NCBI GenBank assembly: GCA_903813345.2
Contig: CAIIXF020000005.1
Location: 7,009,375 to 7,073,374, forward strand
Source: Owenia fusiformis
Lineage: Eukaryota; Annelida; Polychaeta; Sabellida; Oweniidae
Reading direction: 5' to 3'
Length of the DNA stretch: 64,000 bases
Shown: positions 26,491 through 64,000 of the stretch, piece by piece
How positions within the stretch are numbered: the first letter of the stretch is position 1
How the letters are laid out: every line of letters starts with the position of its first letter
The notes under the pieces: generated by a model
Seen by the model: the letters and a program-made list of their open reading frames with translations, nothing else
What the model was told of the DNA's origin: nothing
The model's database searches: none
Position numbers and translations under genes: made by a program

Positions 26491-26499
26491 ACTCCTTAA

Positions 26500-38260: not shown

Positions 38261-40764
38261 CTATGCTAGACCAAATCCCTCAGAGCACTCACTTGTGGCA
38301 GTTAGGAGCATAAATCTCAGCTTGTCGTATGTTTCATATGCTGGTAAATCTAGCTGGTTGAAACTGAAATTAAAATAAATTTTTATCTTGAAATTCTTAA
38401 ATCTGATGCAGCATATTTTAGCACAGACATATTCAATCTCGACCAATAATCAGTTTTCAAATAATGTTGCCAGATATACACAAAAAATAAATTTTACAAA
38501 CCTAATTTACACCATATCAACTTTGGCAAATTTTATTCTATTGAAAATACAGGCATCTGATATATACTGAGACAAAAAGCTATCTTATTTCCAAGTTGAC
38601 CATTACTTGCACTGATAAGCCTTGTACTTACCATGTATGAGCGCAAGGGAGTCGATCAGTAGAGCGATCATCTCTGTGAATTTGGAACTTCTGTATGCCA
38701 TTCATACCCTCCAGGTGACTGAAGCCCTGTAGTGGCACCTTACTAGAGCCTGTCACGAATTGTAGGAAGTTAGCACGCTCAGTCTGGTTGAATGAGCGTA
38801 AAGCACGCCAGAACCACTGGATCTAAAACAAATGATAACAAATCCGTCAATCAGTATTTGGGTTATTGGAGACGCATGAACAAACAACAAACAGACATGT
38901 TCTCTATAATAAACATTTGCAATGGCAAACAGCTCTGGCCGGGACTATCTTACACTCACTTAAAGTTAAAATTTATTTTGAGAAGTTGAGATGATAGTTG
39001 TAGATTTAGAATATCTTGAAAGATATGGACAGTTTGAACACGACATACAGCATATAGACATACCTGTAATGAGTTAGCCTGGTATTTATGGTACTCAGTT
39101 TGTGACTTCAGATCCTCTATATCAATAGTAGGCAGGCCAGATATGAGCAACTCTAACTCCTGCTCATTAAATATAGACACCAATCTCTTCGGTATGATGT
39201 CATAGAAGCCTTCAAGGAAGGCACTGAGCTGCTTCCTTATGGCACCTGTCATTCTCTCCTGGCAGACAAGCTTCACATATTCTCGCTTTGTTTCTTCAGT
39301 GACTGGCACACTACGACCGTTAGGTTTCAGATCTCGGGTCTCGTTCACACCAAACTCCTGGATCTGTAACATGAGACAGTGAGAGTTTGGTCAATTTAAG
39401 ATGGTCTATATGTAATAAAATCTACATTATTAACACTTTGAAAAATGTAATGAAAACATTACAGGGTGTTAGCTAGCTGTGAAGATTTAAGAAAATTTCA
39501 TATTTTGTTCTTGGCTATACTTTTATCTGATGCTGTTTTCCATTTTCCTACTGTTGGCACTATTAGTCTTTTGAGAAAAAATTGGAAAAAATCTACTGTA
39601 TCTGTAAGCCTACCTCTGTTGAGAAGTCCAAGTCATAGCCTAGTTTTGAGATGTCATTTGCCAGTAGATACACTAAGCCTTGGTAGAAGGAATAGTCCTC
39701 ACTCTCCATGTCAGTGTACCTACAATGTTCAATACATTATTTAAGATTTGCCTTGGCCAGAAGATGTTTAATTCCAGATAATACCATAAACATTATCATT
39801 ATATCAGTATCGGACAATCAAGAATCACTAATCAAAATCGGATATCTTTTAAATTGGATATTTTGAGGAACAGGGCCTAGTTAAAGAATGACACTTAATC
39901 TTTTAGGACTGAAACTGATCAGAGTACAACATGTACAAGGGAAGAGTAATGACTAACTTGACTGGAATGCCTAGGATGTGTTTGTAGAAGGATCTGGTAA
40001 AGTAACACTCCAATAGCTTGTTATCATAGATAGCCTTGGCGATGATTCTGCCCACAAATTTGAAGTAGCTCAGATGGTTGGAGTTGCAGTGAGACAGAGG
40101 GTTCACGGTGTAGGTGACTCGGTCTCCGGGAGATGTGGCGAACAAGGCATACATTGGGTTGAAAATCTCTCGGGAGATGATAATGTACCATTCCCTCAGT
40201 AAACCACCTGCATCCTGGCCCTCTTCACCTGTGAAGTTAAGTTATGCTTGCAGCTGATTGGACATTAATATCATGACAAGCCACAAGATCTTTATCATAT
40301 ACTCTCAGTGACGCAAACAAATATTTAGGCACTTTTACAATATAAGAGAATTCAGCCATTCCTTTTGATTTTTTACATGAGAAAATATGCTTTCAATATT
40401 AATTCAAAGCATTTAATACAATGGTTATTTGATTCATGTCTAATACTAATTTTCCAAATAAAATCTTTAAGAAATAAGTTCTACTTACCCTCAAAGACAA
40501 TATAGAACCTATGTTTCCACTCATCAGCATTGCGTCTATGAAGCTCTCTGAATGAATCCTCAAATACCATATCACGACGTATATGCACAGCGAGATCTTC
40601 ACGTCTTATCCCTTCATCCATTCTCTCAAGCTCTTGACGGAAATATCTCCGTTTCACGTCAAAATCAAGGATTCTGGTATGATCAACGAGGACTGAGAAT
40701 GGTCCTTTTGAAAGAGGAGTCGTGGATTGACGGAGGATCTGATTGAGGACTGTACGGTGAGTCT
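38261..40764 (-). other. HUWE1: HECT catalytic domain of HUWE1 (six exons)
   Basis: Exons 40764-40489 to 38363-38261 encode the HECT fold: [18 protein letters not shown], then [20 protein letters not shown], the N-lobe [20 protein letters not shown], and the C-lobe FTG-type segment [15 protein letters not shown]. The active-site Cys is in AHTCFNQLDLP, equivalent to the thioester Cys of human HUWE1. Its TGT codon is split: TG ends exon 38822-38632 and T starts exon 38363-38261. All hallmark residues are present, so the ligase should be active. Confidence 0.95.
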
Positions 40765-43700
40765 CTGAAATAAGAGGAGATATATGGGAACAAATCGATT
40801 TATGCATTTCTTGGTAGTTGTCTAATTCAAATCATTTCAAAATAACTAAACATATCTTCAAACTATTTATCCAGATTTATACTTCAGACATTAATTTTAA
40901 CAACATGGACCTAAATAAGCAAAAGATGGAGGAAGATGGTTACCTGCAAATCTTAGGAACTTGAGTGTATCGGGTGGTAAGTTGGCCATAGAACTGACAG
41001 ACACCACAGAGTTCTCCCTGGTGAGGGCCCCAAGGTTATCAATGCTACTAGACATGGCAGGGGAGAGGGGAGCAGACATGTCCACATTCAAGTGAGTAAG
41101 GAGATCTTCACGTTTCTGTTGCTCATTGTCTTTAGGTTTGTTTGGATCCTTCTCACCTGCAAGTTGAATGAATATTGCAATAGTGATCATGGGTGTAGTC
41201 AAAAAGTCGTCTAAATACCTACATATTTGAATTGACTTGAAACACAATTTTAACTTTACACCAAAATTGAACAAATTAAACTTCAAGGTCATTGTTAAAG
41301 CTGTAATCTGTGCCATGCACCTTATGCAGAAATTCAACTTTAGCCAGATAAAAGCAAAATACCTGCATGCACCAAGAAGAATGCCTCCACTGCTGGTTGA
41401 AGAACAAGTACAGCATGATGATCTTTTGTGCGCCCAAGTTCAGTCAAACACTCCCCAAGACTATCCCAGAGTTCCTCCAAGGCTAACTGTTCACTCAAGC
41501 GTGGTAATACATTCTCTATATCTGTCTTACTGGACACCTTTGGTTGCTCTTGTAACCCTGATGACCCTGGTGAAAAAAGAACTAATCTTTAAACATAAAT
41601 TATGCTGTAAAATTGCAAACATATTTCAGTTGGAAAATATTGAATATACATATAAATTACTTTTTTGGTTAACAGTACATTTCTTGAGGGCATGGTACTT
41701 TCCATAAATGTCATAGCATATCGGTTGACATTAGATGTTGGGAGGTGTTCCTAAAGGTGAACACAATAGAAAGCGTCCATCAAGATCGTCCTCCTCATTT
41801 TTGTAGCAATGTTTGTAGATGTCATCCCACATTGAAAGTGGAAGACAGGATCTGCATTGCATTGTGATATATTTCTGTGAATGGAGCAAAGGATTCAATG
41901 TTTCAAACAAAACAATGTTATATGTTTTAGAGCAATCAAGTTAACCATTCTTGTGAGTATATGTCAAGAACAAGTAATATAGTAGTACCTGGTTGATCAA
42001 CATCCATGGGGCTGTCTACTGAGCTGCTACTAGGGGCACCCCCAGAGCCAGTGCTACCACCTGGTGGTGGTCCAGACGTACTGGCCTGGTACTCCAGCAT
42101 CTGGTCTTCATCAAGATCTGCCTCTATCACTGCCATAGCATCACTGATCTCACGCAGCTCTGAAAATTTCAGGGTATTTTCACTATGAAGTAGCCAAGAT
42201 TTAAGCATAACAGTGATCTTCACCGGATTTTTCCTCAAATGGGTGCAAAATTCTCAATTTCACAATTCAGAACAAAATTGGTCAAAATATGCCCATTTGT
42301 CATGATTTTTCTCATTTTCAAGGGGGTGCAAATGGAATCTAAGGTGGGTGCAAGCCTATTATCAAAATCTCAGGTTGGTGCTGCGCCAACTTGCTTTAAT
42401 GCTGGGGAGATCACTGATATAGGATAAGAAAATGGTCCTCAAATCACTGTGATGAACATTGATGGTTCTCATTTCTTACAGGAGATTGAAGGATTTATAA
42501 TTTATTTGTCATAATTCAATTATAAACAAGCTCAGTGATTAATCTTTGTTGGGAGGTGTTCCTAACGGTGAACACAATAGAAAGCGTCCATCAAGATCGT
42601 CCTCCTCATTTTTGTAGCAATGTTTGTAGATGTCAACCCACATTGAAAGTGGAGGACAGGATCTGCATTGCAATTCATAGATTCACGATACATGTATACA
42701 AGTCTGTATAAATTGTTCCATCAAGAAACAACTCAAAATGCAGGCCATCTTGAAAAACTTTTGCATAAAACTATTTACCAATATTATACATCTTTCAATC
42801 AAATATAAAGAAAATCTATCCATTAGTATTCGAGTTATTTTCCGAAGGGATGGACTGATGGACGAAGGGCTTCACAATATCCCTACCAAACTTCATTAAT
42901 TGGGGTATTAAAGAATTACCTCAAAATGAGGTGTGAAGAAAGTTGAACTCATGCATAAAACTACTTCTGTACATACCAGATTTCTTCGTTTTCTTCGCAG
43001 CTAGTTTAGCCTGTTCGCGGAGCTGTATGATGACCTTTAGAATACGTAGCAGGAACTGTTGGCTGGATGTGTTACTGGTGAGTAGACTCATAGAGGGCAG
43101 ATGCAGCTCACTACCAACTTTCATCTTACCTGGTGTAGCCACAACTGTGCTTGTACCTGTATACCTGGAAATCATTTATGGAGAAAATCTTAATTTGTGA
43201 TGAAAGACTGATCAAAGTACAATAGATGTGAATCTATTTATACCTATACAAAAATTAATTTGGTGTTGTCTTATGTCAGGAGGTGTTCCTAACGGTGAAC
43301 ACAATAGAAAGCGTCCATCAAGATCGTCCTCCTAATTTATGTGGCAATGTTTGTAGATGTCAACCCACATTGAAAGTGGAGGACAGGATCTGCATTGCAA
43401 CTGTTACATAAAATTATTTCTTGAATCCAATTAAACAAAGTGGACAAAGGTTTAGTACTTTTATATACATTCAAAATGATTTGGAAATGAAGTGATAATG
43501 AGAGTGTACCTGTCTGGAATGATGCCTTTCTGAGGCTGTTGTTGGTTTACACCGTCCTCATCTCCCTCCTCTCCTTCTCCCTTCACCTTACTGTTCAACT
43601 CTATCAGCTCACTCAGTAGAGCTCTGAAATATAAACAAGTTACATCAAACCTTTAAAGCCAACAATATTTAAACAAGTCACTCTGTAGCAATATTTTAAA

Positions 43701-46700
43701 GGGCATTATATTAGGGGGTAAAAATTCAGATTTCTGTAGCAGAATAATACCAGGGTGATCCTCATTGAAAACAGAATACACCCAACGATGCGGTCACTGC
43801 GTTACTATTGCATTTATTCGACCAAACCCCACACTTATCTATGAGGCCTGGAGATACAAAATGCTTTAAGACTTGGTAACTATAAACACAATTATGAAAC
43901 CAACAATTAGAACATCACTTATACAAATGACATACTTTTTATATGCTCTCGTATATATCACCAAAATGACAAATCAGAAAATTCACCTTATGTGGACGCA
44001 AACTGTACAACCAAGGTCTTTAGCGCCACCTATGAGGAGATGGAGCACAGAATCGCGGGTGGCATTATTTGAGCGTGATATCTGAAGCAAGAGATTAGTC
44101 GCATCCTCCAAACCTCCATCTGAACATGATTTTGAAGTTAGAACCTGAAATAAATACATAATTTGTAAAATATATGTATACTTTGCAAGTATGTATATTA
44201 CATTAAAGAAGTAAGTAGTATCTCATAGCTAGGCAAGGTGTATCCAATTACAGCCAATCAGAACACGCTATTTCATGTAACTGCATTCTGTTATATAACC
44301 AATAACGAACTCAAGGTATCTTGTGTTGCAGAATAATACCAGGATGATTCTCAAGGAAAAGAAAATACACCCAACGATGCGGTCACTGCATTACTGTTGC
44401 ATTCATTCGACCAAACCCCACACTTATCTATGTGGCCTGGAGATACAAAATGCTTCAATAGCACACATATATTCATCAAACCCCAAAGTCAGCAAAATTT
44501 TTGGCTTACTTGTACTGCTAAAGGTAATTGAGCTTCCAAAACAGGTCTCTCTAACTCAGCCTTCAATTTTGCCTGTTCTTCTTTTTTCCTTTTCTCTTCT
44601 TCATCTTTTTTCCTTTTTTCTTCCTCTTGTTGTTGATCAAGTTCTTTGGGAGGTTTGTTGGGAACGGGAGTAGAGGTAAGGTTGTCTGAAAATATTGACA
44701 TACACATTTCACTCAATTATATGCCATTTTGTAAAAAAATTGTTTGCACATGTCAAAGGCTGAACCTTGTTGAAGAGTAATTCAATAAAACCCAAACATT
44801 GCATTTAGTTGTTTTACCAGAGTAAAAACAAGCTGCGATGCAAATAATCCCATTCAGATTTCTGTAGCAGAATAATACCAGGATGATTTTCATTGGAAAG
44901 AAAATACACCCAACGATGCGGTCACTGCTTTACTATTGCATTAATTCGACCAAACCCCACACTTATCTATGTGGCCTGGAGATACAAAATGCTGCTAGCT
45001 TTAAGCACTAATAATGAATGTACAGTATTTTTGAGCTATTTTAAAATTTTCCCTTGAAACTTGATCAGTGTCTGCTAGTGACGCCAAAGACTTGCTCCAG
45101 TGGTTACTTAATTTTTAATACAACCCATGTACTTGCGACATAGTCACATACCTGTTGGAGGGGAGGATGTGTCCATAGTTTCATTGAGATCACCCTGTGT
45201 CAGCTCTTGAGCTATGAGAGGAGAGGCAGCCACTGCAGATGTGATAGTGCCTGTAGATGTAGTCGTACTAGTGGTTTGGGTATTTGATGCACCTACATAA
45301 CAATTAACATGATGAAATGGCATCACCTGAATTGCGATGACAAAAAGTGGAATGCCAAAAGCCAAGTGGGATACAAGGATGATGCTCAGAGATAACTGCA
45401 TTTATCAAACATGCATCTATGTTGAATGCTCATCGCATTGGAATATTATGCAAAGGACCAATATGCTCTTCATAAAGGTCTCTCCTTACTAATGAGAAAC
45501 TGAGTGGCTATCATTTCAAAGTTAGTGAGGGTTTCTCCCACTGACCAAAGATTTGGGAAATCAAGTCTCATTATTCCAAAGTTAGTATCTTACCTGTATT
45601 GTTTGCTATAGATGTTGTATTAGTTGCTGTAGTAGTTGTGCTACTGGCTGTACTGGGCAAGTACTTCTGAATGTAATCGTATATCCCCATAGCACTCAAT
45701 GACAGCAACCTCAACAGTTTATCTGTCAACTCTTGGTTGCGTTTCATCACTGGATGGCTCAGCATCATCATCAACTGACCAACCGGTGACGATTCAAAGT
45801 TTGTTACACTCATATCTGTTTCTGATGGAGAATTTGAATGCGTTTTCTGAATGCCTTTTCCTTTTTTACTGGTACTTATTTGATCTAGTTTCACTAATAA
45901 ATCCCAAAAGTCTGTGCCAGTTGTTAAATCTGTTTTAGAACTATCTCGCTGTTCTGTAGTGGATTTATCATGTTTGGCAGCTTTCGCGGGACTGGATTGA
46001 TTAGACCGCGATTTATTATGGTCAGAGTCTTTCTCTCCTTTGTCTCCCTTATCTCCATCACATGTTGCTTCTTTTGCCTTATTGTTAAATTGTGGTAGAA
46101 ATTCATTGGGAAATGTTTTAGCAAGTGTCATGAGTACCTCCAGGACATGATTACACACCATGGGAGATGCCTGATGGTGAATACTAACACTTGTATTACA
46201 GTTTAAATTGCTAGAACTTTTTCTGCCATGGGCTGTGCTGTTCCGTTGTATTTGGAAGACATTTGTCCGACAGCCAAGAGCTGCATCCAGACTCACAGAT
46301 AACCATGATTGCTGGCCACTGCGTGAATCCATCCATGACGCACCAGGCACAGAAGCCTCTTGGCTGTTACTTTGACTGGCTGCACCCCCCACATGCTGAC
46401 TGCTTTGACTAGATTTTTTCTTCAGTCTATCACTAACTTTGCCAGTAGTTGGACCAGCTGTCTCAACAGCTGCTATTTCCCCTTCGACTTTACACTCACT
46501 AGTCCGATGTAAAATTGACAATAAAGCTTGTATCAACCACTGTCTTGTTGCGGTGTGATAACATAAATTTCTAAACACCCGCTGAAGTCGAATTTTATTC
46601 AGTCTGGGCTCATTTACAAACAGTAACACTAAGAGGCAGGTTAGAGCTTCGTGATCCAATAGGTGACGCCCTCTTAGACGTAATGCTGCAGCATTTGCGG

Positions 46701-49700
46701 CCTGTGAGCCCTGCCCCCCTCTGTTACCCCAGGTCCACTGTGTACCATGTCTTGTGGGGACACGGATTGTATGACGTGTACCTAATCGACCTGCCAAACC
46801 TGGAATAAGAATATACGTTCATTCACAATTTACAAAAAAATTCTAAAAGAAATAAAACAGAATGAATAGTTTGAGCTAATCTAGTTGTACCAACATTATT
46901 ACAAAATGAGCACTGTTTTCTCAAAATTAAGATACTACGAAATAGATTTTCTATGTCATTTGAAAGAGGTTACTGTAAAAAGCTGAAGCTAATTTGGTGT
47001 TGCAAGACCTTGGAATTGAAGGATACACAAATTTGGTGTTTATACAAAGAAATCAAAATTGAGGATCTATTTGCTGTTGCAGACTTTTACTGGAGTATAG
47101 TTGCAAGGATCTCTGAGGAGTGAGTTGCACAAACGAATAGTAAGTTGCAAGGATCTCTAACAATGATTGAGTTGAAAGGATCTCTTACAAGGAGTGAATT
47201 GCAAGGATCTCTAATGGGAAGTGAGTTGCAAGGATCTCTAACGAAGAGTGAGCTGCAAGGATCTCTTTTGAGGAGCCGAGCTGCAAGGATCTCTAATGAG
47301 GAATGAGTTGAAAGGATCTCTAATGAGAAGTGAGTTGCAAGGATCTCTAACAAAGAGTGAGCTGCAAGGATCTCTAATGAGGAATGAGTTGAAATGATCG
47401 CTAACGAGGAACAAGTTGCAAGGATCTCTAACGGGGAGTAAGTTGCAAAGATGTCTAATTAGGAATGAGTTGCAAGGATTTCTAATGAGGAGTAAGATGC
47501 AAGGATCTCTAATAAAGAATGAGTTGCAAGGATCTCTAATGAGGAGTGAGTTGCAAGAATCTCTAGCATGGAGTAAGTTGCAAGGATCTCTAACAACTAG
47601 TGAGTTGCAACTATGTCTAACGAGAGTGAGTTGCAAGGATTTCTAATGAGGAGAGTTGCAAGGATCTCTAACGCGGAGTGAGTTGCAAGGATCTCTAACA
47701 CGGAGTGAGTTGCAGGGATCTCCAATCAGGAGAGTTGCAAGGATCTCTAACAAGGAGTAGTCTTGCCTGAATGCCGTAAAATAGCTGACAACTGACCAGC
47801 ACCAGCACTGGCAAATAATCTGTCTTGCATCAAGCGTCGATGTCGTTCCTCTAAATCTCTCCGCAGGGACTGTGCCTCAGCTGCTAACTCTGCAGGGAGA
47901 ACTGCTACCATGCTATCATCCATATCAGCCAGAACCTGTTGCCGTAGCGATGGTGGAAGAGAGGCTAGGACACTTGCTGGATCGACAGGTGTCTCAGGAT
48001 TAGGTGGGGCTGCAGTTGCTTGAAGTCTGGCTTGCTCTGCTCTTTGTTGGGCCAGCACCTAAATGACAAGTAATAATCCATGTATTTACATTTTGCATTT
48101 GCTTATTTCCCTGGATTGTATTTCTCAACAGATAGAATGTAATCACAAAATAATTTTTTTGTACCTCTTCTTGAATAGATGGCGGTAATGCTGCCAAGAA
48201 TTCTGCATTCACCTCCCCGATTCCAGCCCCTTGTTCTCCTGCTTGTCGATTCTGCTCTTGGGCACGCTCCTGGATACGCTGGAGACGCAACTGTTCTGCA
48301 ATCACTTCCTGGCGGATACTCTCTGGGAGGGCTGCTAAGAATGAGGGATCGACCCCCTCTGGTAAATCTCCTCCTAGAAGATCAAAATGTACATGAGGCT
48401 TTTTGACGGAGTAGATTATTTCCATGATTAATTTTGGGAAAGTATTCACAATATATGAGTTTAACTCTCAGACAAAATAATACATCATCAATGTTATTAT
48501 GATATATGCTTGTCTTTATTCATCATCATGGAGTTCATTATGTTGATTTAAACAATTTATTCGCCAGTTTTGTTTTAAAATTCAAAATTATGGTGATACT
48601 AACTCAGTTTTCCTACTAATGATGCCACCTGTCATAAAGTGAAAATTTTTAAGGATTTAAGTCATTCGGCAATATGATTTTATTCACAATATATTACATA
48701 TGCCAACAGAGAACAGAACACAGATGCTGAACATCGAATGCCAGTTTTTCTTCATGGCAATTTAAAACTTAGCAAATGTACCTGACTGCCCTGTTGATGA
48801 GCCAGCCCCACTAGATGTGCTCGCTGTCACACTGCTAGTAGTCGTCACTAAAGCTGTGGTACTCGTCACTGTGCCTGTTGATTGACTAACTGAGGTTGTT
48901 GCTGTTGACATGACAGAGTCTGTACTGGACACTGGTTGGTCAGATGACTCATCACCTGTGCTAGGTGTCTCCGAGCTGCTACCTGGAGACATAAATTAAA
49001 CATTAAATGAATGGTAGTTTAAAATGGGCTTATACATGTACTAGGGCCTGATGTAGTTGCAAAGAGTCCTTAATTAAATAGCAGGCAGCAGTCATTGAAT
49101 CTAACTTTGAAGACCTCTGTAAATATGATACATCTGATATCAAAATATTTACACTATAAAGTCCAGTGAACTATCAGAAAAATAATGCACCAGCAATAAA
49201 CTTATGATATATGCTTGTCATTATTAATCATCATTTAGTTTCCACACGAGCATCCATAAACTTTTCAGACTACATGTACTAGGTTTTTAAGTAAGGCTTA
49301 AACGGTTTGGCTTATCTTGGATTTTTGGTGAAACAGTCAATGGATTGCTTGGTGCCACTTCAGGTATTCAAAAGGATGGTATGAAGTTACGAAATCCACC
49401 TAAAGATTGCTTCTATATATTTTTGAAATATTCTGTGAACTTATCTCCTATTCAAACCCGACTATCAAGGGAGGAGTAAAGTTAGAGATGTGTGTTACCT
49501 GTGGAGTGTATAGTGACTGCATCTCCAGAGCTGGTAAAACTGGAAGGTTCAGGAGTGATGAGAGGGTTGAACACTCTGCTTGTTGCCTCCTCTACAGCAT
49601 CAGCAAACACTTGTTGAGTCTGCTCAATGGTATCTGTACTTGACCAACCACTTGTCACACCACTCACACCTAGTGTAAAATATCATATTTAGGAGTTACC

Positions 49701-55700: not shown

Positions 55701-58700
55701 TAAAGCACCAGGCATTTTTCAGCATGTTTAAGAATAAAACATGGCAAATGATGAAAATCAATTGAATATTGACCAGTAGGTCTAAGAGCTTCTAAATCAC
55801 AGATACATATCAACAAATATCACATCTATAGACTTGTTCAGGTTAGGATCATCGGGATTTAACAGTACGAACAATCCTGATTTCAAAAAATCCAGCAAAA
55901 AATCTCAAATCATCTTAATGTTTCATGATTTTTCAGAGTCGCAACTGGGCACAAAAGGATTTTCAAGTTGATTCTGAATAATTTTTTTACATCAATGTTA
56001 TAGGAATCCTACCTGCAAGCTCATTGCCATTATTGTCATCATGTACACTTATTGGCAGGTTATACGTCCTCAAGTGATGGGCATCTCCGAATATCAGATG
56101 CTGACTGGGAACTGAAACATACACATGATAATATTAAACAAATCTCGAGATTACAGTTTATTTGTTGAACTAAAGATCTTGATTCTTGAACCTTCAGATC
56201 AAAGATTTGATCATTCAGTTTGATTCAATGCTTTTATAATTTTTTTGTACAGCTCTATCCAATGATTATACATTTGGTACAAAGTTTGCAAAATAATGAT
56301 GTTGCTTGTATCTTGAACCATAAGAACACAAGTCAGAATGGCTTGATTTACAAGCATATAATGTTGCTATCAATTCTGAGCAAATTATTCAAGGTAGAGA
56401 ATACATGCCAAAAGGTTGAGATAGCAATTTAGGTATTGCACATGCTGTTGTCGTTATTGACCAGAAAGTTGCAGTTTGTTCCACAATCAAACGCTAGGCC
56501 GACAATATGGCCCCAAACTATGTGGTGGGGACATAATAACTATTAAATTATCTCCCTCTTAGTTTAGAAGCCATAAATGAGTATGTTATTTCAATATCTT
56601 CCGGTAGCTTGCTCTAATCTATTGTTGCTGAATCCTATGAACATTTTCTATACAGACAACTTACCATGTGCTGGAAACATGTCTTCCAGTTGTACAAAGA
56701 GATCATCGTCATCATTCATGCGGACCATGGTCTCCTCCATGTCTAGGTAGTCATCATCCATACCCTCGAGATCTATACCCTCCATGTCAGAGCCCTAAAA
56801 GACACCAATAACACTTAATATGAAACTTGAATCAAGCCGAATCATCTGATATGTGATTAGAACTGTGAGCATGAAACTTAGTTTGACAACATTCTCACCA
56901 GATTGTCGCAAATCCATGTATCTGATTGGCCAGTTTCAGTTATGTGACTATGCAATCCCAGATTGGATATCTCAAATAAAATACTTGTCTAAATCTCAGT
57001 TTTACAGATTACATCAACCAACTCAAGGGAGAGTCCCTTATTCTCATTTAGATAAAATTACAGCTCTAGTTGATTTAACAGAGTAGGTGTTGCACGTATC
57101 TTGAACCATAAGAACACAAGTTAGTATGGCTTGATTTACAAGCATATTATGTTGCTATCAATTCTGAGCAAGTTATTCAAAGCAGCGAATACATGCCAAA
57201 AGGTTGAGATAGCAGTCATTGACATTCAGTTAGTCACAATGATTAACTTTTTGGTTGTCCTGTAATCAATATTACCATCCATACCTCACTGTAGTCATCT
57301 CCTTCATCATCGTCATCCTCTTCTTCAACATCATCGTCGTCCTCATCGTTGTCATTCTCTTCATCATCTTCTGGGCCATCATCGTCGTCGTCGTCATCAT
57401 CTTCGTCACTGTTTGAGTCATCATCCTCCTGGTCTGCTACAACAACAAAATAAAGGTTACATGAAAAAAAATTCAAACTAGGGTATTGAGCCTGATTTTG
57501 ATGTAAATTGATCTCTCGGACACTGAGAGTTTACCAACTGAGCCATGTTGCATGTATCTTGAACCACAATGACATAGGTCACAATGGCTTGATTTACAGG
57601 CATTCAATGTTGCTATCAATTCTGAGCAAATTATTCAAGGTATAGAATATATGCCAAAAGGTTGAGATAGCAGTTGAGTTATACAAATACTGAAAAACTC
57701 ACCTTGAGTGTGTTCAGGCATGTCATCATCTGAAATGTCTTGTGTGATCATCTGTGAATCATGTGCATCGTCCTCGTCATCACCAGCCACATCTAGAATA
57801 ACATTGTCATTCTCCTGATCAACCACATCATCATCTGAAATCAAACAAAGCAAAACATAACAATCAGTCTTTTGAACAGCACTAAGAAATGCTTCAACTT
57901 GAATAAGTGTGATGGAATATCTTGGCCTTTATTGCTTGGGCCGATTGTCCAATAATTTTCAAAATCACATAGACTTAAGGGGACATTAATCTGTAACAAC
58001 CATCACTGATTCTAGTCTGTAACAACCATCACTGATTCTTAATGTGGCAAGATACAGGGCTTTCTTGACTTTGTGCACTTGGACATAAACAATGCATGAA
58101 CAGAAACAACTCTCAGTTGAAATAATGAATCCGCATGATATTTCAGATATATGCTTGTCTTTATTAATCATCACAGAGTTGTTACATTCAGATAATCACA
58201 TTACATTCGTTGACATTGTAATTAGTACATACAAGTATTAAAGTTTTGGGGTACATTTTTTGCTAATTGAAAAATAATTTTTAGATTCTCATTTTCCAAT
58301 ATAGCTATGGTTCTTAGGGTAGATTCATATGATGAGAATTTAATAAACAAGACACTGACGCCTATCAACACAAGACAACAACAATATAGTTCTAAACAAG
58401 TGCTATGAAATTAACATTTCTCTACTCACCCTCCATGAGAATACACTCCAGTTGAGCATTCCTATTCTGCCTCCTGTTGTCAATCAGTTGATCAAGCACA
58501 TGTTCCAACTCATTCTCTACCCTAATATGATCATCACTCACACCTACAACATTAAATATCAATTTGTTTTTCACCTAATGGTACATTGAGGACACAGTTT
58601 AGTAACAAATGTATGTATCATAATATAATTGCTCTAATTATTTAAGAAAATACATATGCATGCATTTCAGTCAAGATGGTCAGTGACTATGTTTCATTAT

Positions 58701-61700
58701 ATATTGTTGTGCCTCAGTCCTATCATTTAAGTATCACAGATTATTCACTATTTGGCAATTTTAACATCATCGGCTGAAAGATAGATTAAGTCCTATCCTC
58801 TGTTAAATATGACCATCACATGCTAGCTATGATCCCTCAATATTTTCACTGTGTAGATGTGGAGTTGATGCAAGACTTGTATGTTTCTCACCTGAATCTT
58901 GAACCTGTGGGGCTGTATGTTCCGTATCCTCAGCCACAACTGCAAGACTGGGGTCTTCTATAGGCTGACTCTCTGTGGTGGATACAGTGGTAGCCTGGGA
59001 GCTTGCAACTGGTTGCTCAGCTTCTGCCTGTTGTTGAGTCCTAACCTCTTGTTCTTGAGTAGAGGCTGTTTCAGTTACATCTTTAATATGAATAACAGTT
59101 GATGGGTTGAAACAGTAACTAAAGTGTGATTTTTTGATTGCATCTTATAATTTAATGAAATAATTTAAATAACCTCGACATGCCTCAGTCCTATCATTTA
59201 AGTATCACAGATAATTCACTATTAGGCAGTTTTAACATCATTGGCATATGTGTATTAGCAGATTTACATATCTTTCTGAACCACAGATTACAATACGCTA
59301 CAGCACACATTTGTAAATCAACAAATATTCAGGATATGTTTTCATTAAGAAATGTGAATTTACAAGCACTGGCAATATGCAAGCATGTAACCATACCCAA
59401 TCCCCCATATATGAATGCACAGTAAACAAATAGCTGAGCAACATGTATTTGGAAGCAACATGGAGCAACATCACATTATACCAGCAATTAATAGATATCT
59501 GAACAACATGTCTAGATGTAAAGCACTAGCAATATACTAGCACTAATATCACCAACACATGTTTGAGTAGTATCTCTAGATAAAGCCCTAGCAATATACT
59601 AGCACTAATATCACCAACACATGTTTGAGCAACATGTCTAGATAAAGCCCCAGCAATATACTAGCACTATCCCAAATATACATTTGAGCAACATGTCCAG
59701 ATAAAGCCCTAGGAATATACTAGCACTAATATCACCCAACACAATTTGAGCGACATGTCTTGATGAAGCCCTAGCAATTTACTAGCACTTATATCACCCA
59801 ACACAATTTGAGCAACATGTATGAAGCATTGGCTTATTACAACACCAACACTGTTGCATGTATCTTGAACCACTGAGAGGTCCAACTCACAATGGCTTAG
59901 GAATTGCAGGCATTGCTTTTGCTATCTGGTCTTAGCACCTATTCATGGGATAGATTAGGTACCAAAGGGTATAGATAGCAAATGCCATTAGCAATAATTC
60001 CACCACCAAATAGCCTTCTCTCAAAGCACTATTTATGAGCCACGTGTTCCCCTCAACATCTTAATATCACTAAAAGACTATAACACTAAAAATCTTAATA
60101 TGAACAAGAGCTAAACTTCTTTCATACAAACCTTTTATTTGGAACAATGGGGCAAGAATGACATTAATATGGAATTCCATGGTCTTTTTGTACTTACTTC
60201 TATTTTTCTAGATTCTCAACTGCACAATAGTCGACAAGACAAAAATCATTTTTCAAAACTGTTAAGCTTCAATGCTTGGAAGATTTTTCTTTATAGGTTC
60301 TCATTTTATTCTCATAATTTTCAAATATAATGTCAAACTACCTATGTTTATAACAACATAAGCTGCAGAGGAAATATCACTGCCATAGTTGTTGTACTCA
60401 CCTGGAGGAGGATTATTTTCTCTTGTCTCATTCACAGTGTTATCACTCCTAGCCTCCTCAGCAACATTAGTTTTGGACTTATGGTTGGGCTTCTGTACAA
60501 CATTCTGTGGCTGGTTAACTATCCTAGATAAAGTCTCCAGTGGCTTTAATGATGCATTCACTGTCAAACACATATTAGGACTGGATAAGTCCAGGCTATG
60601 AGGGATGCGTGCCAGGTCACTGACAATCCCCCGCTTCAGCATAATTTTCACCATATTGTTCATAGTATTCTGTTGACCTTTAAACACTTGGTTAGGCACC
60701 TGTCCTGGCACTGGACAGGACTCTATCATCGTGCTTATAATCCCAGTTAGACACTGTATCCTTGAATGTTTCTCTGCACTTTCTGGCAGGTTTAGGGCCC
60801 TGGGGAGGGCAGATTTCACCTCATTTACAAGTACAGTCTGAGCCTCAGGGCAATGATTAGATGAAGCAAGGCTGGAGATTAATAGCCTAGATAGGGCTGG
60901 GCAGTCCTTGTCTCCACTCTTTTGGCAGGAGGGTAGTAAGTGGTCAAATATAAATGCGAGCACATTAGTGTCCTGAAATTGAAGATAAAATGTAGTGTAA
61001 GACAATATATTTGAGTATTTGACCAAGTAGTAAATAATCATTTGCAAATTCATATGTTCTAGCAAGTGTAACAATATTTCATGGCTCTCAAAGCTTTACA
61101 TTATCTCCTTATGTCTCAGTCCTATCATTAAAGTATCATTTATATTTCAGCATTAGGCAGTTTTAACATCATTGGCACATAAATAATATAATACAAATAT
61201 GAAGAATCAATTTCAGAGCATACATACCTCCGTAATAATATCTGACTGTCCCACATTGTAGGAATATTGAGCAACTAGTAACGCACACCCAGCATATGAC
61301 CGCACCAACTCGGCAAGTAGACGTAATATGGCAGACTTTGGCAATAATGGTTTACTTTTCCTTTTTTCTTCCTCCTTTTTCTTGCGTTCTTCCTCAGATT
61401 CCTCTTTCTCCTCATCTTTCTTATCACTGGATGACCCTTGAGTTCCAGGCTGTAAAAATATAAGTACCAGGATGGTGAGATACATGTACATGTAATGTTA
61501 CAGGGTGTTTTACTGTTGTACAGGCCGTTTTACTGTTGGTATAACTTGAGTACTCAGAGAAACAGTGATCAAGTCCAGAATCAACTGAGCCTTTAATACA
61601 AGTCTACACAAAGTCTCTTGGAAAACATGTGGTGTAGTAATACCTCTATACGAGTTTAGTTTAAATATTTCCTCTGCATATTAAGATAAGAACTCTCAGA

Positions 61701-63797
61701 CATTTGGAAATTTCATCAAGATATTTATGATATATGCTTGTCTTTAATCATCATCATAGAGTTCAAGTTTTATACACTTTTTCATTTCCTCACATAAATT
61801 TTGATCAATAATTTTGAGAAATTTCTTTAACAAATTCAATTTAGTTTACCATTAATATGTATACACTATACCTGTAAAGAAGGTCGAATGAGGCCTCTAG
61901 TTGGAAGCACTGAATCGTCTTCCTGTTGGAGATTATCAGCACTACCTTGACGCACAATAGAACGAGGCACATGACTGCCTATGACATCATTCAATATGTC
62001 CCCAAGCTCAGCCAATGTCTGACCAGGAGTGGAGTCCAAGACTAGAGCTGCAGTACAACACGTACAACATTTCAGATGATAAAGATTCATTAGAATAACA
62101 ACATATGATGTGAATAAAATGATTATTGATCACACAATCAAAAACCACATCCTTGAGGCCCCATCATTATTTAGTCAAATCTACAAATAGACTTCAATGA
62201 AACTATTTAATTTCACAGCTTTGAATTTTGTAGATTTCAAGATGATAGTGATTCAAGCCTCTTAAGTAGTATTTGTATGCTTTATCTGTATATTGAAGAA
62301 GTTTAAACAGGTCCTCAGTCCTATCATTGAAAAATCATGGGTATTTCAAGCATTAGGCATTTTGTTCATCACTGGCGCAAGCAAAACTCTTCACAGATTT
62401 GTACATAAATGAAATCCTTGCATAATTTAAAACCAATTACTAAGTGCAGAAATATTACTTGTTACATACATATACAGTTTTGAATTGCACTTTTGGAACA
62501 TACTTTTTGTCATTTGAAGTTTCTCAGTAATGCACAGACCTTTTGATTCCTCTTCCTCCCCGCTGTCATATTTCACTACAAGCGTATTGAGCAGATCATG
62601 GATGACGTCTCTCACAACTCCCTCCATATTAGGTGCACCTGTTTGTTTCAATGGTAAGGCTTTGAGAACCTGTGGTGCATTGGGCCCAGTGAATCTACTG
62701 TCATCTTCATCTGAAATGAACAAAATAGTCCATTTTTGTTAGAATTAAACATATTAGATGGAAGTCGCATCTGATTCAAAATAATAAGAGAAGATATATA
62801 TTCTGGCCTCAGTCCTATCATTTAAGTATCACTGTTATTTCAGCATTAGGCATGTTTATCATCATCAGCCGAGAATGTATTCTCTGAACAAACAAATAAA
62901 ATGTAAAATAATCATTAATCGTGTGTAAGTATATGGTACAAGATTTATGTGGCAACTGCCCACTCCACACACCCAACAGCACAAGATGACAATACAGCAC
63001 TTTTTCATCAAAAATTCAAAATGCCCATTACGTAATGTACCCAGTATGCCCGAAGCCAAATCAACACATGACGATGACAATATAGCAACAAAAAATGTGA
63101 TAGAAAATGCTACCTCTTTTAGAAGGTGGAGGTAAGGAAATCCTCAACTGGGCCTTCACCACCTCTTGGAACAATGTTGTGTCCCTGCAGGCTGCTGGCG
63201 CCAATAGCTTCATGATGTAATGGAACTCCTTGGAGCCTATTGACCCCTGGGCTACCCCCGTCACACTGGAGCCTGTACCATTGGTTGAAGAACGGACCAC
63301 CTAATGAAAGAAAAAGGAAACATGATTTTGATTTTTCCAGGACCAAGGAAGTCAAATATATCTACTGGCTAATATTTTTCATAAATTGTTCCAATCAGAA
63401 TTTTTTAATTTACGACAGTACCATCAGTTTCGGGAAAATGATTCCTCATTGGGTTTCAGGATCCGTAAATCATCAGTGATTCTGTCTTTAGTATTACATA
63501 ATTGAGTATTAGTTGAATATACATTCAGATGGACATAAAAAGCTAGAATCCCATACCTTTTCCATTGTGTATTTGAGATTCACATTGTCCTCCAAGATAT
63601 GCCTAAGAAGTAATGTTGCAAGGGAAGTGAAGCCTTGGAAGGCTGAGGCCTGAGTAAGGGACAACAGCAACTTGTGTCCCCCTAGCTCAGCGAACTGTAA
63701 AGCATAGGAGTGATCTCTGGTGATGCGTAACAGGAGCCTCATGGTGGCATGCACTGTGTCTGTATCAACTGGAATGCTGATTAAACCAACTGCAGTC
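38261..63797 (-). CDS. HUWE1: HUWE1, giant HECT-type E3 ubiquitin ligase (3' part, 39 exons, 2757 codons in window)
   Basis: Ubiquitin-protein ligase of cytoplasm and nucleus; in vertebrates it acts on MCL1, p53, histones and MYC-family proteins. Exons, 5' to 3': 63797-63557, 63300-63114, 62710-62540, 62047-61872, 61449-61228, 60972-60402, 59080-58892, 58543-58430, 57834-57703, 57436-57285, 56794-56665, 56111-56013, 55653-55518, 54834-54751, 54453-54300, 53194-53071, 52539-52358, 52127-51995, 51313-51087, 50091-49932, 49669-49499, 48982-48782, 48373-48165, 48058-47767, 46799-45594, 45292-45152, 44685-44510, 44144-43987, 43623-43510, 43164-42977, 42159-41989, 41566-41363, 41156-40944, 40764-40489, 40228-39958, 39719-39614, 39363-39064, 38822-38632, 38363-38261. 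Codon phases match at all 38 junctions. Family blocks seen include [71 protein letters not shown] and the C-terminal ECSEGFGLA. The N-terminal part lies beyond the window. Exon 58892-59080 is the least certain (weak acceptor). Confidence 0.96.
41733..41862 (-). ncRNA. H/ACA snoRNA, family E copy 1 (HUWE1 intron)
   Basis: On the HUWE1 strand: hairpin closed by GCAATG/CATTGC, H box ACAAAA, second hairpin closed by GGAGG/CCTCC, tail ACATCT with ACA three bases from the end. Three copies sit in consecutive hosting introns. Confidence 0.75.
42544..42673 (-). ncRNA. H/ACA snoRNA, family E copy 2 (HUWE1 intron)
   Basis: Same two-hairpin layout and H box ACAAAA as copy 1; tail ACAAAG. The body is about 95% identical to the other copies, while the intron around it is unrelated. 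Confidence 0.75.
43271..43400 (-). ncRNA. H/ACA snoRNA, family E copy 3 (HUWE1 intron)
   Basis: Hairpin stem GCAATG/CATTGC, hinge with an ACATAAAT-type variant of the H box, second stem GGAGG/CCTCC, tail ACATAA. Confidence 0.72.
43732..43866 (-). ncRNA. H/ACA snoRNA, family D copy 1 (HUWE1 intron)
   Basis: Stem 1 GCATTT/AAATGC, H box ATAGTA, stem 2 GCAG/CTGC, tail ACAGAA. Four copies in four introns. Confidence 0.72.
44321..44455 (-). ncRNA. H/ACA snoRNA, family D copy 2 (HUWE1 intron)
   Basis: Same fold; the H box ACAGTA differs from copy 1 yet keeps ANANNA; tail ACACAA. Confidence 0.72.
44860..44994 (-). ncRNA. H/ACA snoRNA, family D copy 3 (HUWE1 intron)
   Basis: Stem GCATTT/(T)AATGC, H box ATAGTA, second stem GCAG/CTGC, tail ACAGAA. 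Confidence 0.72.
47090..47755. repeat. 27-bp minisatellite, about 25 units, in a HUWE1 intron
   Basis: Unit GAGTTGCAAGGATCTCTAAC plus about 7 variable bases (for example GAGGAGT). As 27 is a multiple of 3, both strands show spurious repetitive ORFs (nine residues per unit). It begins only about 12 bases past the donor of exon 48058-47767. Confidence 0.95.
47767..48373 (-). other. HUWE1: UBM/DUF4414-type ubiquitin-binding region of HUWE1 (two exons)
   Basis: Exons 48373-48165 and 48058-47767 encode repeated LP-centred motifs: [34 protein letters not shown], and [18 protein letters not shown]. In human HUWE1 the corresponding region holds ubiquitin-binding motifs with the invariant Leu-Pro. 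The second exon ends at CAG|GCAAGA, a GC donor. Confidence 0.85.
48463..48536 (-). ncRNA. C/D snoRNA, U27/SNORD27-like, family B copy 1
   Basis: Terminal stem AACTC/GAGTT, C box ATGATGA, D box CTGA, 89 bases from the 3' splice site. The guide AGACAAGCATAT is complementary to the 5' end of 18S rRNA. The D' box is degenerate (CATA). Confidence 0.85.
49168..49242 (-). ncRNA. C/D snoRNA, U27-like, family B copy 2
   Basis: Terminal stem AACTA/TAGTT has changed on both strands relative to copy 1 and still pairs. C box ATGATGA, D box CTGA, guide GACAAGCATAT kept. Confidence 0.82.
50174..50245 (-). ncRNA. C/D snoRNA, family F copy 1
   Basis: Terminal stem GACTTGT/ACAAGTC, C box ATGATGA, D' CTGA, C' TGATGTG, D box CTGA, 82 bases before the 3' splice site. 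The guide before D' (CACAGACCTGT) is complementary to the ACAGGUCUGUG segment of 18S rRNA. Confidence 0.88.
50325..51003. repeat. near-perfect 679-bp palindrome in a HUWE1 intron
   Basis: Arms 50325-50654 and 50672-51003 are inverted, with only a few mismatches; the spacer is 17 bases (centre 50663). The words ATAGCCCGAGCTTGCGAGGG and GGCATATATTCAATGATA are shared. Very young foldback MITE; it lies between exon 51313-51087 and the family F snoRNA. Confidence 0.95.
51759..51880 (-). ncRNA. H/ACA snoRNA, family C copy 1
   Basis: Stem 1 GCTATC/GATAGC, H box ACATCA, second hairpin around GTGAC.../GTCAC, tail ACACGC. Five copies in five introns. Confidence 0.75.
52753..52827 (-). ncRNA. C/D snoRNA, U27-like, family B copy 3
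   Basis: Stem GAACTC/GAGTTC, guide AGACAAGCATAT before D' CTGA, D box CTGA. The C box (GGATGAT) is off consensus, so activity is less sure. Confidence 0.75.
53514..53575 (-). ncRNA. C/D snoRNA, family F copy 2
   Basis: Stem GGCTTGT/ACAAGTC (one G.U pair), C box ATGATGA, D' and D boxes CTGA, same 18S guide as copy 1. Only a few base differences between the copies. Confidence 0.87.
55057..55191 (-). ncRNA. H/ACA snoRNA-like, family D copy 4
   Basis: Stems and H box ATAGTA as in copies 1-3, but the tail box reads ATA rather than ACA. It may be weakened or inactive. Confidence 0.62.
55836..55925 (-). ncRNA. decayed family F-like C/D fragment
   Basis: Only the 3' end (CCTGAACAAGTC) matches family F. 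The 5' stem and a clean C box are absent. Probably a pseudogene. Confidence 0.3.
56304..56426 (-). ncRNA. H/ACA snoRNA, family C copy 2
   Basis: TGCTATC/GATAGCA stem, H box ACATTA, tail ACAAGC. Confidence 0.75.
57092..57214 (-). ncRNA. H/ACA snoRNA-like, family C copy 3
   Basis: TGCTATC/GATAGCA stem and H box ACATAA kept; the ACA box reads ACG (tail ACGTGC), so function is doubtful. Confidence 0.62.
57285..57834 (-). other. HUWE1: acidic Asp/Glu-rich region of HUWE1 (two exons)
   Basis: Exons 57834-57703 and 57436-57285 encode about 95 residues dominated by D and E, including runs of eight D and a [12 protein letters not shown] tail. Human HUWE1 has a comparable acidic stretch at this place, and disordered acidic linkers are usual here. 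Confidence 0.9.
57550..57672 (-). ncRNA. H/ACA snoRNA, family C copy 4
   Basis: TGCTATC/GATAGCA stem, hinge ACATTGAA (one base off ANANNA), second hairpin, tail ACATGC. Confidence 0.7.
58107..58181 (-). ncRNA. C/D snoRNA, U27-like, family B copy 4
   Basis: Stem CAACTC/GAGTTG (compensatory change against copies 3 and 5), C box GTGATGA, guide AGACAAGCATATAT before D' CTGA, D box CTGA. Confidence 0.88.
58711..58774 (-). ncRNA. C/D snoRNA, family A copy 1
   Basis: Stem GCC/GGC, C-like box GATGATGT, D box CTGA. The guide AAATGATAGGA before D is complementary to UCCUAUCAUU of 28S rRNA. Confidence 0.7.
59180..59247 (-). ncRNA. C/D snoRNA, family A copy 2
   Basis: Stem ATGCC/GGCAT, C box ATGATGT, D box CTGA, same guide AAATGATAGGA. 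Shares its intron with the family C copy at 59856, the only intron with two. Confidence 0.75.
59440..59830. repeat. 63-bp minisatellite, about six units, in a HUWE1 intron
   Basis: Unit contains AACATGTCTAGATAAAGCCC, TAGCAATATACTAGCACTAA and TATCACCAACACATGTTTGA. Copies at both ends are more diverged. Confidence 0.85.
59856..59980 (-). ncRNA. H/ACA snoRNA, family C copy 5 (diverged)
   Basis: TGCTATC/GATAGCA stem, H box AAAGCA, tail ACATGC. The loop of the first hairpin differs from other copies while stem and boxes are kept. Confidence 0.7.
61111..61180 (-). ncRNA. C/D snoRNA, family A copy 3
   Basis: Stem ATGT/ACAT, C box ATGATGT, D' CTGA, guide AATGATAGGA, D box CTGA. Confidence 0.75.
61690..61764 (-). 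ncRNA. C/D snoRNA, U27-like, family B copy 5
   Basis: Stem GAACTC/GAGTTC, C box ATGATGA, guide AGACAAGCATAT, D box CTGA. The D' box is degenerate. Confidence 0.88.
61872..62047 (-). other. HUWE1: BH3-like segment of HUWE1
   Basis: This exon encodes [16 protein letters not shown]. It contains L-A-E-L-G-D, which fits the BH3 core L-x3-G-D at the position where human HUWE1 carries its BH3 (MCL1-binding) motif. Conservation of binding is inferred only. Confidence 0.5.
62311..62376 (-). ncRNA. C/D snoRNA, family A copy 4
   Basis: Perfect C box GTGATGA, guide CAATGATAGGA, D box CTGA. The terminal stem is short (CC/GG). Confidence 0.7.
62800..62876 (-). ncRNA. C/D snoRNA, family A copy 5
   Basis: Outer stem ATTCT/AGAAT, C box TGATGATGA, D' CTGA, guide AAATGATAGGA, D box CTGA, 89 bases before the 3' splice site. 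Confidence 0.82.
63414..63486 (-). ncRNA. C/D snoRNA candidate, single copy (family G)
   Basis: Terminal pairing GACAG/CTGTC with CA/TG inside, C box CTGATGA (one base off), D' CTGA, D CTGA. The guide before D' (TTACGGA) and the guide before D (TCCCGAA) are complementary to neighbouring stretches UCCGUAA and UUCGGGA of 28S rRNA. Confidence 0.6.
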
Positions 63798-63940
63798 CTG
63801 GAAAAAATAAGAGACATAATTACAAGACCTGGTTCCAATTATGCCAATGTTTCATGGTTCTTCTGTAAGACTTAAATTAAATTTACTTAAACAACGGTTT
63901 ATTTGAACGCATGTATAACTTCTATCTTAGATAGGTTGAT

Positions 63941-64000
63941 GGCCTCAGTCCTATCATTTAGGTATCACTGTTATTTCAGCATTAGGCATGTTTATCATCA
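63941..64000 (-). ncRNA. C/D snoRNA, family A copy 6, cut by the window end
   Basis: D box CTGA, guide AAATGATAGGA, D' CTGA and C box TGATGAT are visible. The first bases lie beyond 64000. Confidence 0.78.

Follow-up and report, generated by a model that had tools for sequence, protein, structure and literature searches.

HUWE1 of the annelid Owenia fusiformis is very probably a protein-coding host gene for an array of predicted intronic snoRNAs expanded by cis-duplication

The window analyzed here, a stretch of 64,000 nucleotides on contig CAIIXF020000005.1 of Owenia fusiformis, contains the 3′ part of a HUWE1 gene, which runs on beyond the window edge to extended coordinate 89693 (C5:7099067) in a model of 78 exons and 77 introns. 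The top PDB matches of the encoded protein are HUWE1 (E 2.2e-55 and 1.2e-49), and Pfam places DUF908, DUF913, UIM, WWE, UBM and HECT domains in it. Within the model, the start of intron 74 (GTTAGT) was read by eye, and exon 16 and other short gene-finder calls were left out as unlike HUWE1. The gene and the predicted snoRNAs in its introns are, in the window:

38261-64000, minus strand, 3′ part of the HUWE1 gene, beginning inside intron 39 and ending with the stop codon
63939-64000, minus strand, C/D family A (SNORD29-like), intron 39; 5′ end beyond the window edge, near 64007
63418-63482, minus strand, C/D family F, intron 40; C box CTGATGA
62803-62871, minus strand, C/D family A (SNORD29-like), intron 41
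62309-62378, minus strand, C/D family A (SNORD29-like), intron 42; closing stem of 2 bp only
61690-61763, minus strand, C/D family C (SNORD27), intron 43
61110-61178, minus strand, C/D family A (SNORD29-like), intron 44; C box ATGATGT, closing stem of 1 bp
59849-59981, minus strand, H/ACA family D, intron 45; divergent copy
59179-59247, minus strand, C/D family A (SNORD29-like), intron 45, beside the family D copy; C box ATGATGT
58708-58776, minus strand, C/D family A (SNORD29-like), intron 46; C box ATGATGT, closing stem of 3 bp
58107-58180, minus strand, C/D family C (SNORD27), intron 47; above the Rfam gathering score
57543-57678, minus strand, H/ACA family D, intron 48; hinge deviates from exact ANANNA
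57085-57219, minus strand, H/ACA family D, intron 49
56297-56431, minus strand, H/ACA family D, intron 50
55056-55188, minus strand, H/ACA family E, intron 52; ATA instead of ACA
53505-53573, minus strand, C/D family B (SNORD25-like), intron 54
52753-52826, minus strand, C/D family C (SNORD27), intron 55; C box GGGATGA
51755-51887, minus strand, H/ACA family D, intron 57; ATA instead of ACA
50175-50243, minus strand, C/D family B (SNORD25-like), intron 58
49168-49240, minus strand, C/D family C (SNORD27), intron 60
48462-48535, minus strand, C/D family C (SNORD27), intron 61
44860-44992, minus strand, H/ACA family E, intron 65
44319-44453, minus strand, H/ACA family E, intron 66
43732-43864, minus strand, H/ACA family E, intron 67
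43271-43403, minus strand, H/ACA family I, intron 68
42544-42671, minus strand, H/ACA family I, intron 69
41733-41860, minus strand, H/ACA family I, intron 70; last element of the array

An independent inventory of positions 41733-64000 returned the same 26 elements, seven families (A six, B two, C five, D five, E four, F one and I three) and 25 hosting introns as an earlier sequence-only reading, and agreed with it on host gene, strand and element types: every element in the window lies on the minus strand, as HUWE1 does, and 24 of the 25 introns hold exactly one. As a total the earlier count falls short, being less than half of an array that reaches intron 1 and comprises 58 predicted snoRNAs in 14 families, 43 of box C/D and 15 of box H/ACA type, all in host orientation. 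Across the whole gene the C/D copies include nine of A, eight of B, seven of C, four each of G and H and one of S. Fifty-seven of the 77 modelled introns are occupied, with introns 1-25 holding exactly one predicted snoRNA each and intron 45 (60401-59081) alone holding two; no element was found in introns 71-77 and 13 others. Random placement of 57 elements, the number then known, gave an expectation of 12.7 doubly occupied introns and a minimum of 6 in 20,000 trials. Furthermore, all 43 C/D copies keep at least 81 nt from the 3′ splice site, with none closer than 60 nt against 7.7 expected.

The C/D set is defined by C and D boxes joined by a terminal stem in its 43 copies. An exact RTGATGA C box is present in 35 (the exceptions are three copies of A, one of C, one of F and three of L, the last with a box two bases off consensus) and a closing stem of at least 4 bp in 39 (the exceptions are three copies of A and one of K), so that the boxes and stems described earlier stand for most copies but not as perfect features, with 8 of 43 C boxes inexact and four stems shorter. 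The CTGA D box occurs in 43 of 43, a count that is not independent because the D box anchored the search. Scanning all HUWE1 introns for box C, box D and a closing stem yielded 40 host-strand matches (35 belong to the inventory), against five on the opposite strand and six in shuffles; the strict form of the scan (exact C box and closing stem of at least 5) gave 29 on the host strand against 0 on the opposite one, and none on either strand of window positions 1-38000 or of the 14 kb upstream of the gene.

The H/ACA evidence is weaker than that for C/D. Two-hairpin folds were obtained for families D, E, I, N and P, and across the whole gene, with predicted 3′ ends, 14 of 15 copies have an exact ANANNA hinge and 13 of 15 the ACA; in the window, the hinge and ACA ascribed earlier to this class were recovered in 11 and 10 of 12 copies, respectively, and failed in the family D copies of introns 48 and 57 and the family E copy of intron 52. 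With one copy tested per family, D and I fold better than shuffles and E no better (z -1.3), while family D shows double changes in 1 of 36 pairs and a slightly unfavorable covariation term. The H/ACA scan by itself matched 15 introns forward, six reverse and three shuffled. H/ACA-like folds in introns 2, 41, 59 and 77 were left uncounted because each is weak or overlaps a tandem repeat or a C/D RNA, and in intron 57 the best scan match differs from the family D copy.

Thirty-three of the 43 C/D copies pair with rRNA through a guide upstream of D or D′, with the target base 5 nt from the box; they belong to families A, B, C, G, H and S, 24 of them pairing with the animal’s own 18S (four families and the single RNA S) and nine with the LSU of other eukaryotes. 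Shuffled guides reached at least 11 pairs with 18S in 52 of 9,500 cases and at least 12 in 12 of 9,500. All eight copies of family B pair with the own 18S at AACAGGTCTGTG with D+5 on G, six by 11 Watson-Crick pairs and two by 10 plus a G-U, at what is presumably position 1490. The seven copies of family C do so over 11-12 pairs through an invariant 11-nt guide, GACAAGCATAT, at a site that we take to be the known A27, and each matches RF00086, one at 52.6 bits, the only snoRNA match to pass its Rfam gathering score, and six below it at 36.8-50.0 bits, a combination that places the family with SNORD27; D+5 falls on A wherever D′ reads CTGA or CAGA, as it does in four copies, and the remaining three have a degenerate CATA there. 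Families G, H and S are SNORD45-, SNORD57- and SNORD103/85-like, with Rfam matches to SNORD45, snoR53Y and SNORD103 that all lie below gathering: G pairs with the own 18S by 14 pairs in four of four copies, H by 12 pairs in two, 11 plus a G-U in one and a weak 8 plus a G-U in the copy of intron 11, and S through two guides, one of 12 pairs and the other of 9 plus a G-U, the sites being, on our assumption, A159, A99 and G601. The family H target reads ATTAGATCGGTT in the own 18S and ATTAAATCAGCT and ATTAGAACAGTT in two other eukaryotes; the predicted guide is directed at a lineage-specific 18S sequence.

An identical 10-nt guide is carried by all nine copies of family A and pairs with CTTCCTATCATT in four of four other eukaryotic LSU sequences, one of them confirmed as LSU, presumably at position 4493; an alternative pairing with the own 18S (10 Watson-Crick and 3 G-U pairs in four of nine copies) arose from misplaced boxes. 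The published guide sites are 18S G1490 for SNORD25 and LSU A4493 for SNORD29 (PMC6461891). Putative targets of the three remaining C/D families, F, K and L (10 copies), form the weaker part of the case: searches of the own 18S and 5.8S gave best matches of 9 pairs only (for F a single 18S site, with a G-U, in three of four copies; for K two of three copies and for L one of three), which we rejected because shuffled guides reach 9 pairs in 628 of 9,500 cases, and longer pairings in L007, L009 and L010 were set aside, their location in mature rRNA not being demonstrated.

Body identity within families averages 71-95%, against 48-59% for flanks and 49% for random intron pieces, which bears out the conserved bodies and unrelated flanks noted before; copies of the same family lie on average 13.8 introns apart against 24.0 when shuffled (0 of 10,000), and the intron-to-intron copying proposed earlier holds up. 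Such copying could also leave a real array of few working copies, in which most are surplus duplicates, drifting or gene-converted, and carried as neutral ballast rather than as a selected dose, a reading compatible with cis-duplication in a host gene and one we consider unlikely but not far-fetched. The redundancy of up to nine copies per guide agrees with it, as do the imperfect C boxes, the four short stems, the poorly pairing family H copy of intron 11 and 6 of 258 flank comparisons with at least 60% identity, clearest for family B in introns 16/17 and 21/22, which indicate that some duplication is recent; some copies may indeed be dead. Yet flanks sit near random identity in every family whose bodies remain alike, and in family C the terminal stem is paired in 35 of 35 cells with both partners altered in four of five pairs (0 of 500 shuffles), compensated outer-stem changes that gene conversion alone would not preserve. 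Stem covariation extends to a second family, B, where 92.9% pairing and the covariation score were each reached by 3 of 500 shuffles and the one pair changed on both sides is at shuffle level (367 of 500). Variation is also lowest in guide and box columns: one guide and one box column of 21 vary in family A against 12 of 36 others (seven of nine copies), one and none of 25 in B against 5 of 32, and none and one of 21 in G against 10 of 41.

That the elements are mainly cis-acting structures aiding HUWE1 splicing or regulation, with a secondary guide role, seems to us very improbable: the full occupancy of introns 1-25 would suit it, and host-splicing regulation by intronic snoRNAs is described in excerpts of PMC10324135, but a cis role needs neither guides that match rRNA, one of them at a lineage-specific sequence, nor is it easily squared with the 20 introns lacking a detected element. 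A mobile element (SINE or snoRTE) with snoRNA-like bodies, accumulated in HUWE1 by chance, is scarcely credible: it would account for the number of short, sharp-ended copies, similar to one another except in their flanks, but not for a single orientation, one element per intron bar one, the distance kept from the 3′ splice site or 14 families of which six carry matching rRNA guides, and the genome-wide scattering raised against the array earlier was not seen, since a search of 498 Mb with 9 of the 14 families (by DNA searches that missed 4 of 47 known copies) gave 43 matches, all within HUWE1, rather than copies dispersed in both orientations. Among these nine, the H/ACA families D, E and I gave none outside HUWE1, and when the genome was searched with the SNORD27 covariance model, the seven copies in HUWE1 were joined only by a match at chance level (E 0.39) on a different contig. 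Groups J and te1-te3 were dropped before counting as resembling transposon or palindromic sequence, group M because it spans a 3′ splice site and, next to F in introns 34 and 36, resembles an intron end that has been duplicated, and group O, some 7 kb upstream of the start codon, with no boxes seen. Matches to MIR2630 and mir-8536 at 50539-50788 are below gathering and fall within intron 58, on a long palindromic stretch that reads like a MITE.

Together, these data lead us to conclude with high confidence that HUWE1 is a protein-coding multi-snoRNA host gene expanded by cis-duplication. We propose that its introns would be spliced out, debranched and then trimmed to snoRNPs, so that, at one guide per hosting intron in all but one of them, a single pre-mRNA could yield up to 58 guides, and that those of the 14 families would direct 2′-O-methylation and pseudouridylation at few rRNA sites, a single site being served by as many as nine copies. 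DNA-level copying between introns, mostly to nearby ones, would have built the array, with flank similarity lost afterwards and the RNA bodies held by selection. We infer that these snoRNAs are expressed, processed and functional, with a gain in dose, and that the earlier label of a ‘snoRNA factory’, which implies expression, would fit. A further step, plausible though short of probable, is that HUWE1 became the principal vehicle delivering a chosen set of rRNA-modification guides, dose selection filling most introns that have room for one. If so, its transcription rate would set the dose, weighted by copy number, of about 14 guides, the array would be a protein-coding counterpart of those of SNORD115/116, and ribosome modification would be tied to a ligase with homologues that degrade ribosomal proteins left unassembled.

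Multi-snoRNA hosts and intron-to-intron copying are already known. SNHG1 hosts SNORD25, SNORD27 and SNORD29; UHG and the hosts of SNORD113/114 and SNORD115/116 are non-coding; and the introns of human HUWE1 host the microRNAs let-7f-2 and miR-98, while to our knowledge no snoRNA is placed there. Like HUWE1, vertebrate UHG/SNHG1, GAS5 and JOSD3 carry several snoRNAs in separate introns, in numbers far below 58, and SNORD25, SNORD27 and SNORD29 are named together with SNHG1 in 13 papers; the exons of the present host, however, code for HUWE1 and share neither the non-coding nature nor the ancestry of a UHG/SNHG1-type host. In the passages of PMC2653536 on JOSD3 and GAS5-like hosts, chicken JOSD3 hosts eight H/ACA-type RNAs, the GAS5-like host is non-coding and HUWE1 is not named as a snoRNA host; host-gene terms had no match in PMC3511168. 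SNORD113/114 and SNORD115/116, according to excerpts of PMC11028025, likewise have many C/D copies per locus, arranged as tandem repeat units in eutherian imprinted domains, whereas the HUWE1 array has a protein-coding host and 14 interleaved families of both classes placed between different exons. Excerpts of PMC2653536 and PMC8178906 describe cis-duplication into other introns of a host, with guides kept, in C/D families of chicken and human; PMC8178906 links C/D RNAs with cis-copying and H/ACA RNAs with retroposition. Unlike that pattern, four H/ACA families (D, E, I and N, together 14 copies) also share one gene here. HUWE1 as host and the scale and occupancy of its array were not found in the literature searched.

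The array shows how far the layout of one snoRNA per intron goes, and because every copy sits between identifiable exons it offers a ready test system; it bears on why genes become hosts, on the cis spread of both C/D and H/ACA RNAs, on copy number versus rRNA-modification level and on the payload limit of a pre-mRNA. Huwe1 shares the role of yeast Tom1 with unassembled ribosomal proteins, which makes the choice of HUWE1 as host suggestive. Tom1 itself is linked to their degradation in excerpts of PMC5026473. SNORD14 occurs in clusters, a hint that local copying is common in this genome and HUWE1 an extreme.

The snoRNAs are hosted by HUWE1, whose exons lie on the minus strand of the window (C5:7009375-7073374): the exon at 74578-75299 finds human HUWE1 as its best protein match (E 2.2e-55; coordinates beyond 64000 carry the window numbering into 40 kb of upstream DNA, with 64001 = L001:1), the HECT exon at 39064-39363 is likewise closest to HUWE1 (E 1.2e-49), and Pfam pieces of DUF908, DUF913, UIM, WWE, UBM and HECT turn up in 7 of the 14 scanned exon pieces, among which the HECT exon counts twice. 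The gene was modelled with a Viterbi gene finder for GT-AG introns whose training set was the clear exons, with further exons found or lengthened via translation and short exons unlike HUWE1 removed by judgement, guided by the human protein. The resulting computational model, whose start codon lies at 89693 and whose stop lies at 38261, comprises 78 exons and 77 introns, an intron number uncertain by one or two, with some exon ends possibly off by a few bases. Along its entire length we predict 58 snoRNAs in 14 families: the box C/D families A (SNORD29-like, 9 copies), B (SNORD25-like, 8), C (SNORD27, 7), F (4), G (SNORD45-like, 4), H (SNORD57-like, 4), K (3), L (3) and S (SNORD103/85-like, 1), and the box H/ACA families D (5), E (4), I (3), N (2) and P (1). 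Members were collected by self-BLAST and Rfam, with S coming from the C/D scan and Rfam and P from the H/ACA scan:

76725-76601 (extended coordinates), minus strand, box H/ACA snoRNA P in intron 20, from the H/ACA scan

Within 41733-64000, the 26 elements of seven families that the sequence-only reading had placed in 25 introns, one of them holding two, are all recovered exactly. In the whole gene 57 of 77 introns are occupied, and each of introns 1-25 contains exactly one snoRNA. Of the introns below 255 nt 0 of 9 hold a snoRNA, vs. 57 of 68 longer ones, and only one intron is doubly occupied against 12.7 expected and a minimum of 6 in 20,000 random placements of the 57 elements other than P. 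In this sole exception, intron 45, a 62/121-bp tandem repeat at 59500-59820 lies between the two snoRNAs, and an unrecognised exon between them is possible. Among the longer introns without a snoRNA, intron 63 is mostly filled by a 27-bp minisatellite of about 23 copies (47132-47758); intron 58 features a near-perfect palindrome at 50340-51005, with arms of about 300 bp as read by eye, which adjoins a SNORD25-like copy and attracts sub-threshold Rfam miRNA matches.

Chance resemblance accounts poorly for the C/D predictions: a scan of the HUWE1 introns gives 40 matches on the host strand, 5 on the opposite strand and 6 in shuffles, and its strict version gives 29 vs. 0, with no matches on either strand of window positions 1-38000 and 14 kb of upstream DNA. 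The H/ACA scan (sum < -24 kcal/mol) taken alone is much weaker evidence, because it is positive in 15 introns forward vs. 6 reverse and 3 shuffled. The H/ACA case is built instead on repeated families, on hinge (14 of 15 copies) and ACA boxes (13 of 15), and on folds, which in one copy per family compared with shuffles reach z -3.9 for D, -3.4 for I and -1.3 for E, and about -1.2 to -1.4 for the first part of N.

The snoRNA bodies are also conserved beyond their surroundings, with family mean identities of 71-95% compared to 48-59% for flanks and 49% for random intron pieces. In the SNORD27 family all 35 cells of the terminal stem are paired, 4 of its 5 pairs show double-sided changes, and none of 500 shuffles is equally good on any of five measures; in the SNORD25-like family the stem is 92.9% paired, a value reached by 3 of 500 shuffles, and its one pair with double changes is at shuffle level (367/500). 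Covariation in H/ACA families is scant (1 of 36 pairs in D; 2 of 31 in the two sequences of N). In A (seven equal-length copies), B and G, variation is lower in guide and box columns than in the remaining ones. The 43 C/D snoRNAs all keep a distance of 81-310 nt to the 3' splice site, with none closer than 60 nt where 7.7 are expected.

Guides were compared, in the register of the D+5 rule, with Owenia's own 18S (1,357 nt) and 5.8S, both taken from its rDNA record, L006, where the 18S copy at 6278-7634 is missing a part relative to the 1,831-position model; the spacer from 18S to 5.8S shows apparent internal repeats when read by eye. Pairing with own 18S is found for B at AACAGGTCTGTG in 8/8 copies, for C at CATATGCTTGTC in 7/7, for G at GTAATTCTAGAGCT with 14 pairs in 4/4, and for H at ATTAGATCGGTT, strongly in three copies and weakly in the fourth, while S pairs at two 18S sites; F, K and L gave no target in own 18S and 5.8S. 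Shuffled guides reach 11 pairs in 52 of 9,500 cases and 12 pairs in 12 of 9,500, and since the scan accepted more than one D-like box in an RNA, an isolated match of 9-10 pairs carries little weight. The D' box of C reads CTGA in three of seven copies, CAGA in one and CATA in three, and in the last the D+5 register is not clean because the scan anchors on ATCA two bases earlier. At the H site the own 18S is unlike that of two other eukaryotes and the guide fits the own version, as expected if the guide followed its target. The A guide fits CTTCCTATCATT, found by search pattern in 4/4 other eukaryotic sequences, among them L008, whose identity as LSU was confirmed; the available part of the own 28S consists of N. 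PMC6461891 assigns SNORD25 to SSU G1490 and SNORD29 to LSU A4493. The eukaryotic rRNA in L007, L008, L009 and L010, including the LSU of L008, lies in records labelled as bacterial MAGs and is contamination of public bins.

As to the origin of the array, same-family copies lie on average 13.8 introns apart vs. 24.0 when shuffled (0 of 10,000 shuffles as close), with the families interleaved. Flanks reach at least 60% identity in 6 of 258 comparisons, most clearly between the SNORD25-like copies of introns 16/17, over some 230 bp on the side of the 3' splice site, and of introns 21/22; that a few pairs retain one common flank points to DNA-level copying between introns, or cis-duplication, as the route by which the array would have arisen. 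The alternative named by the sequence-only reading, repeats scattered genome-wide, finds no support in DNA searches of the 498-Mb genome with nine of the 14 families (A, B, C, D, E, G, H, I and K), whose 43 matches are all in HUWE1. These recovered 43 of 47 known copies, missing three of C and one of H, so that distant copies elsewhere could escape them; a SNORD27 covariance search returned all seven HUWE1 copies and one match on contig C2 at E 0.39. The control, SNORD14, gave eight genome matches, none over gathering, seven of them in two clusters:

C6:29650232-29654143, five SNORD14-like matches on the same strand within 4 kb
C6:20013344-20015304, two SNORD14-like matches on the same strand within 2.1 kb

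Such tight clusters suggest that local snoRNA copying is perhaps general in the Owenia fusiformis genome, and within-host copying may be common there with HUWE1 as its extreme case.

Intronic snoRNAs are released from the spliced, debranched intron as the standard route, by which one HUWE1 pre-mRNA could release as many as 58 guides. Hosts of several snoRNAs and cis-duplication are already known: PMC11028025 describes animal host genes as often carrying several snoRNAs, mostly one per intron, and PMC2653536 and PMC8178906 describe cis-duplication in chicken and human. In a partial literature search we met no precedent for a coding host with 58 RNAs, 14 families and most introns filled: by title and abstract opening, none of the papers met on HUWE1, snoRNAs and introns deals with snoRNA hosting, no paper turned up on intronic paralogs in invertebrate snoRNA hosts, and no such array appears among the matches listed for annelid, mollusc and brachiopod snoRNAs.

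Two similar 70-nt elements, in which no snoRNA boxes were seen, lie upstream of HUWE1, some 7 kb from its start codon:

96376-96445 (extended coordinates; upstream piece L004, 2376-2445), 70-nt element
97078-97147 (extended coordinates; L004, 3078-3147), 70-nt element

The same piece has a tRNA match at L004:1284-1373. Elsewhere in the window, a 226-aa open frame on the minus strand (10189-10869) reads like a non-LTR reverse-transcriptase fragment, and an 83-bp tandem array at 25830-26497 consists of eight copies with 95% matches.
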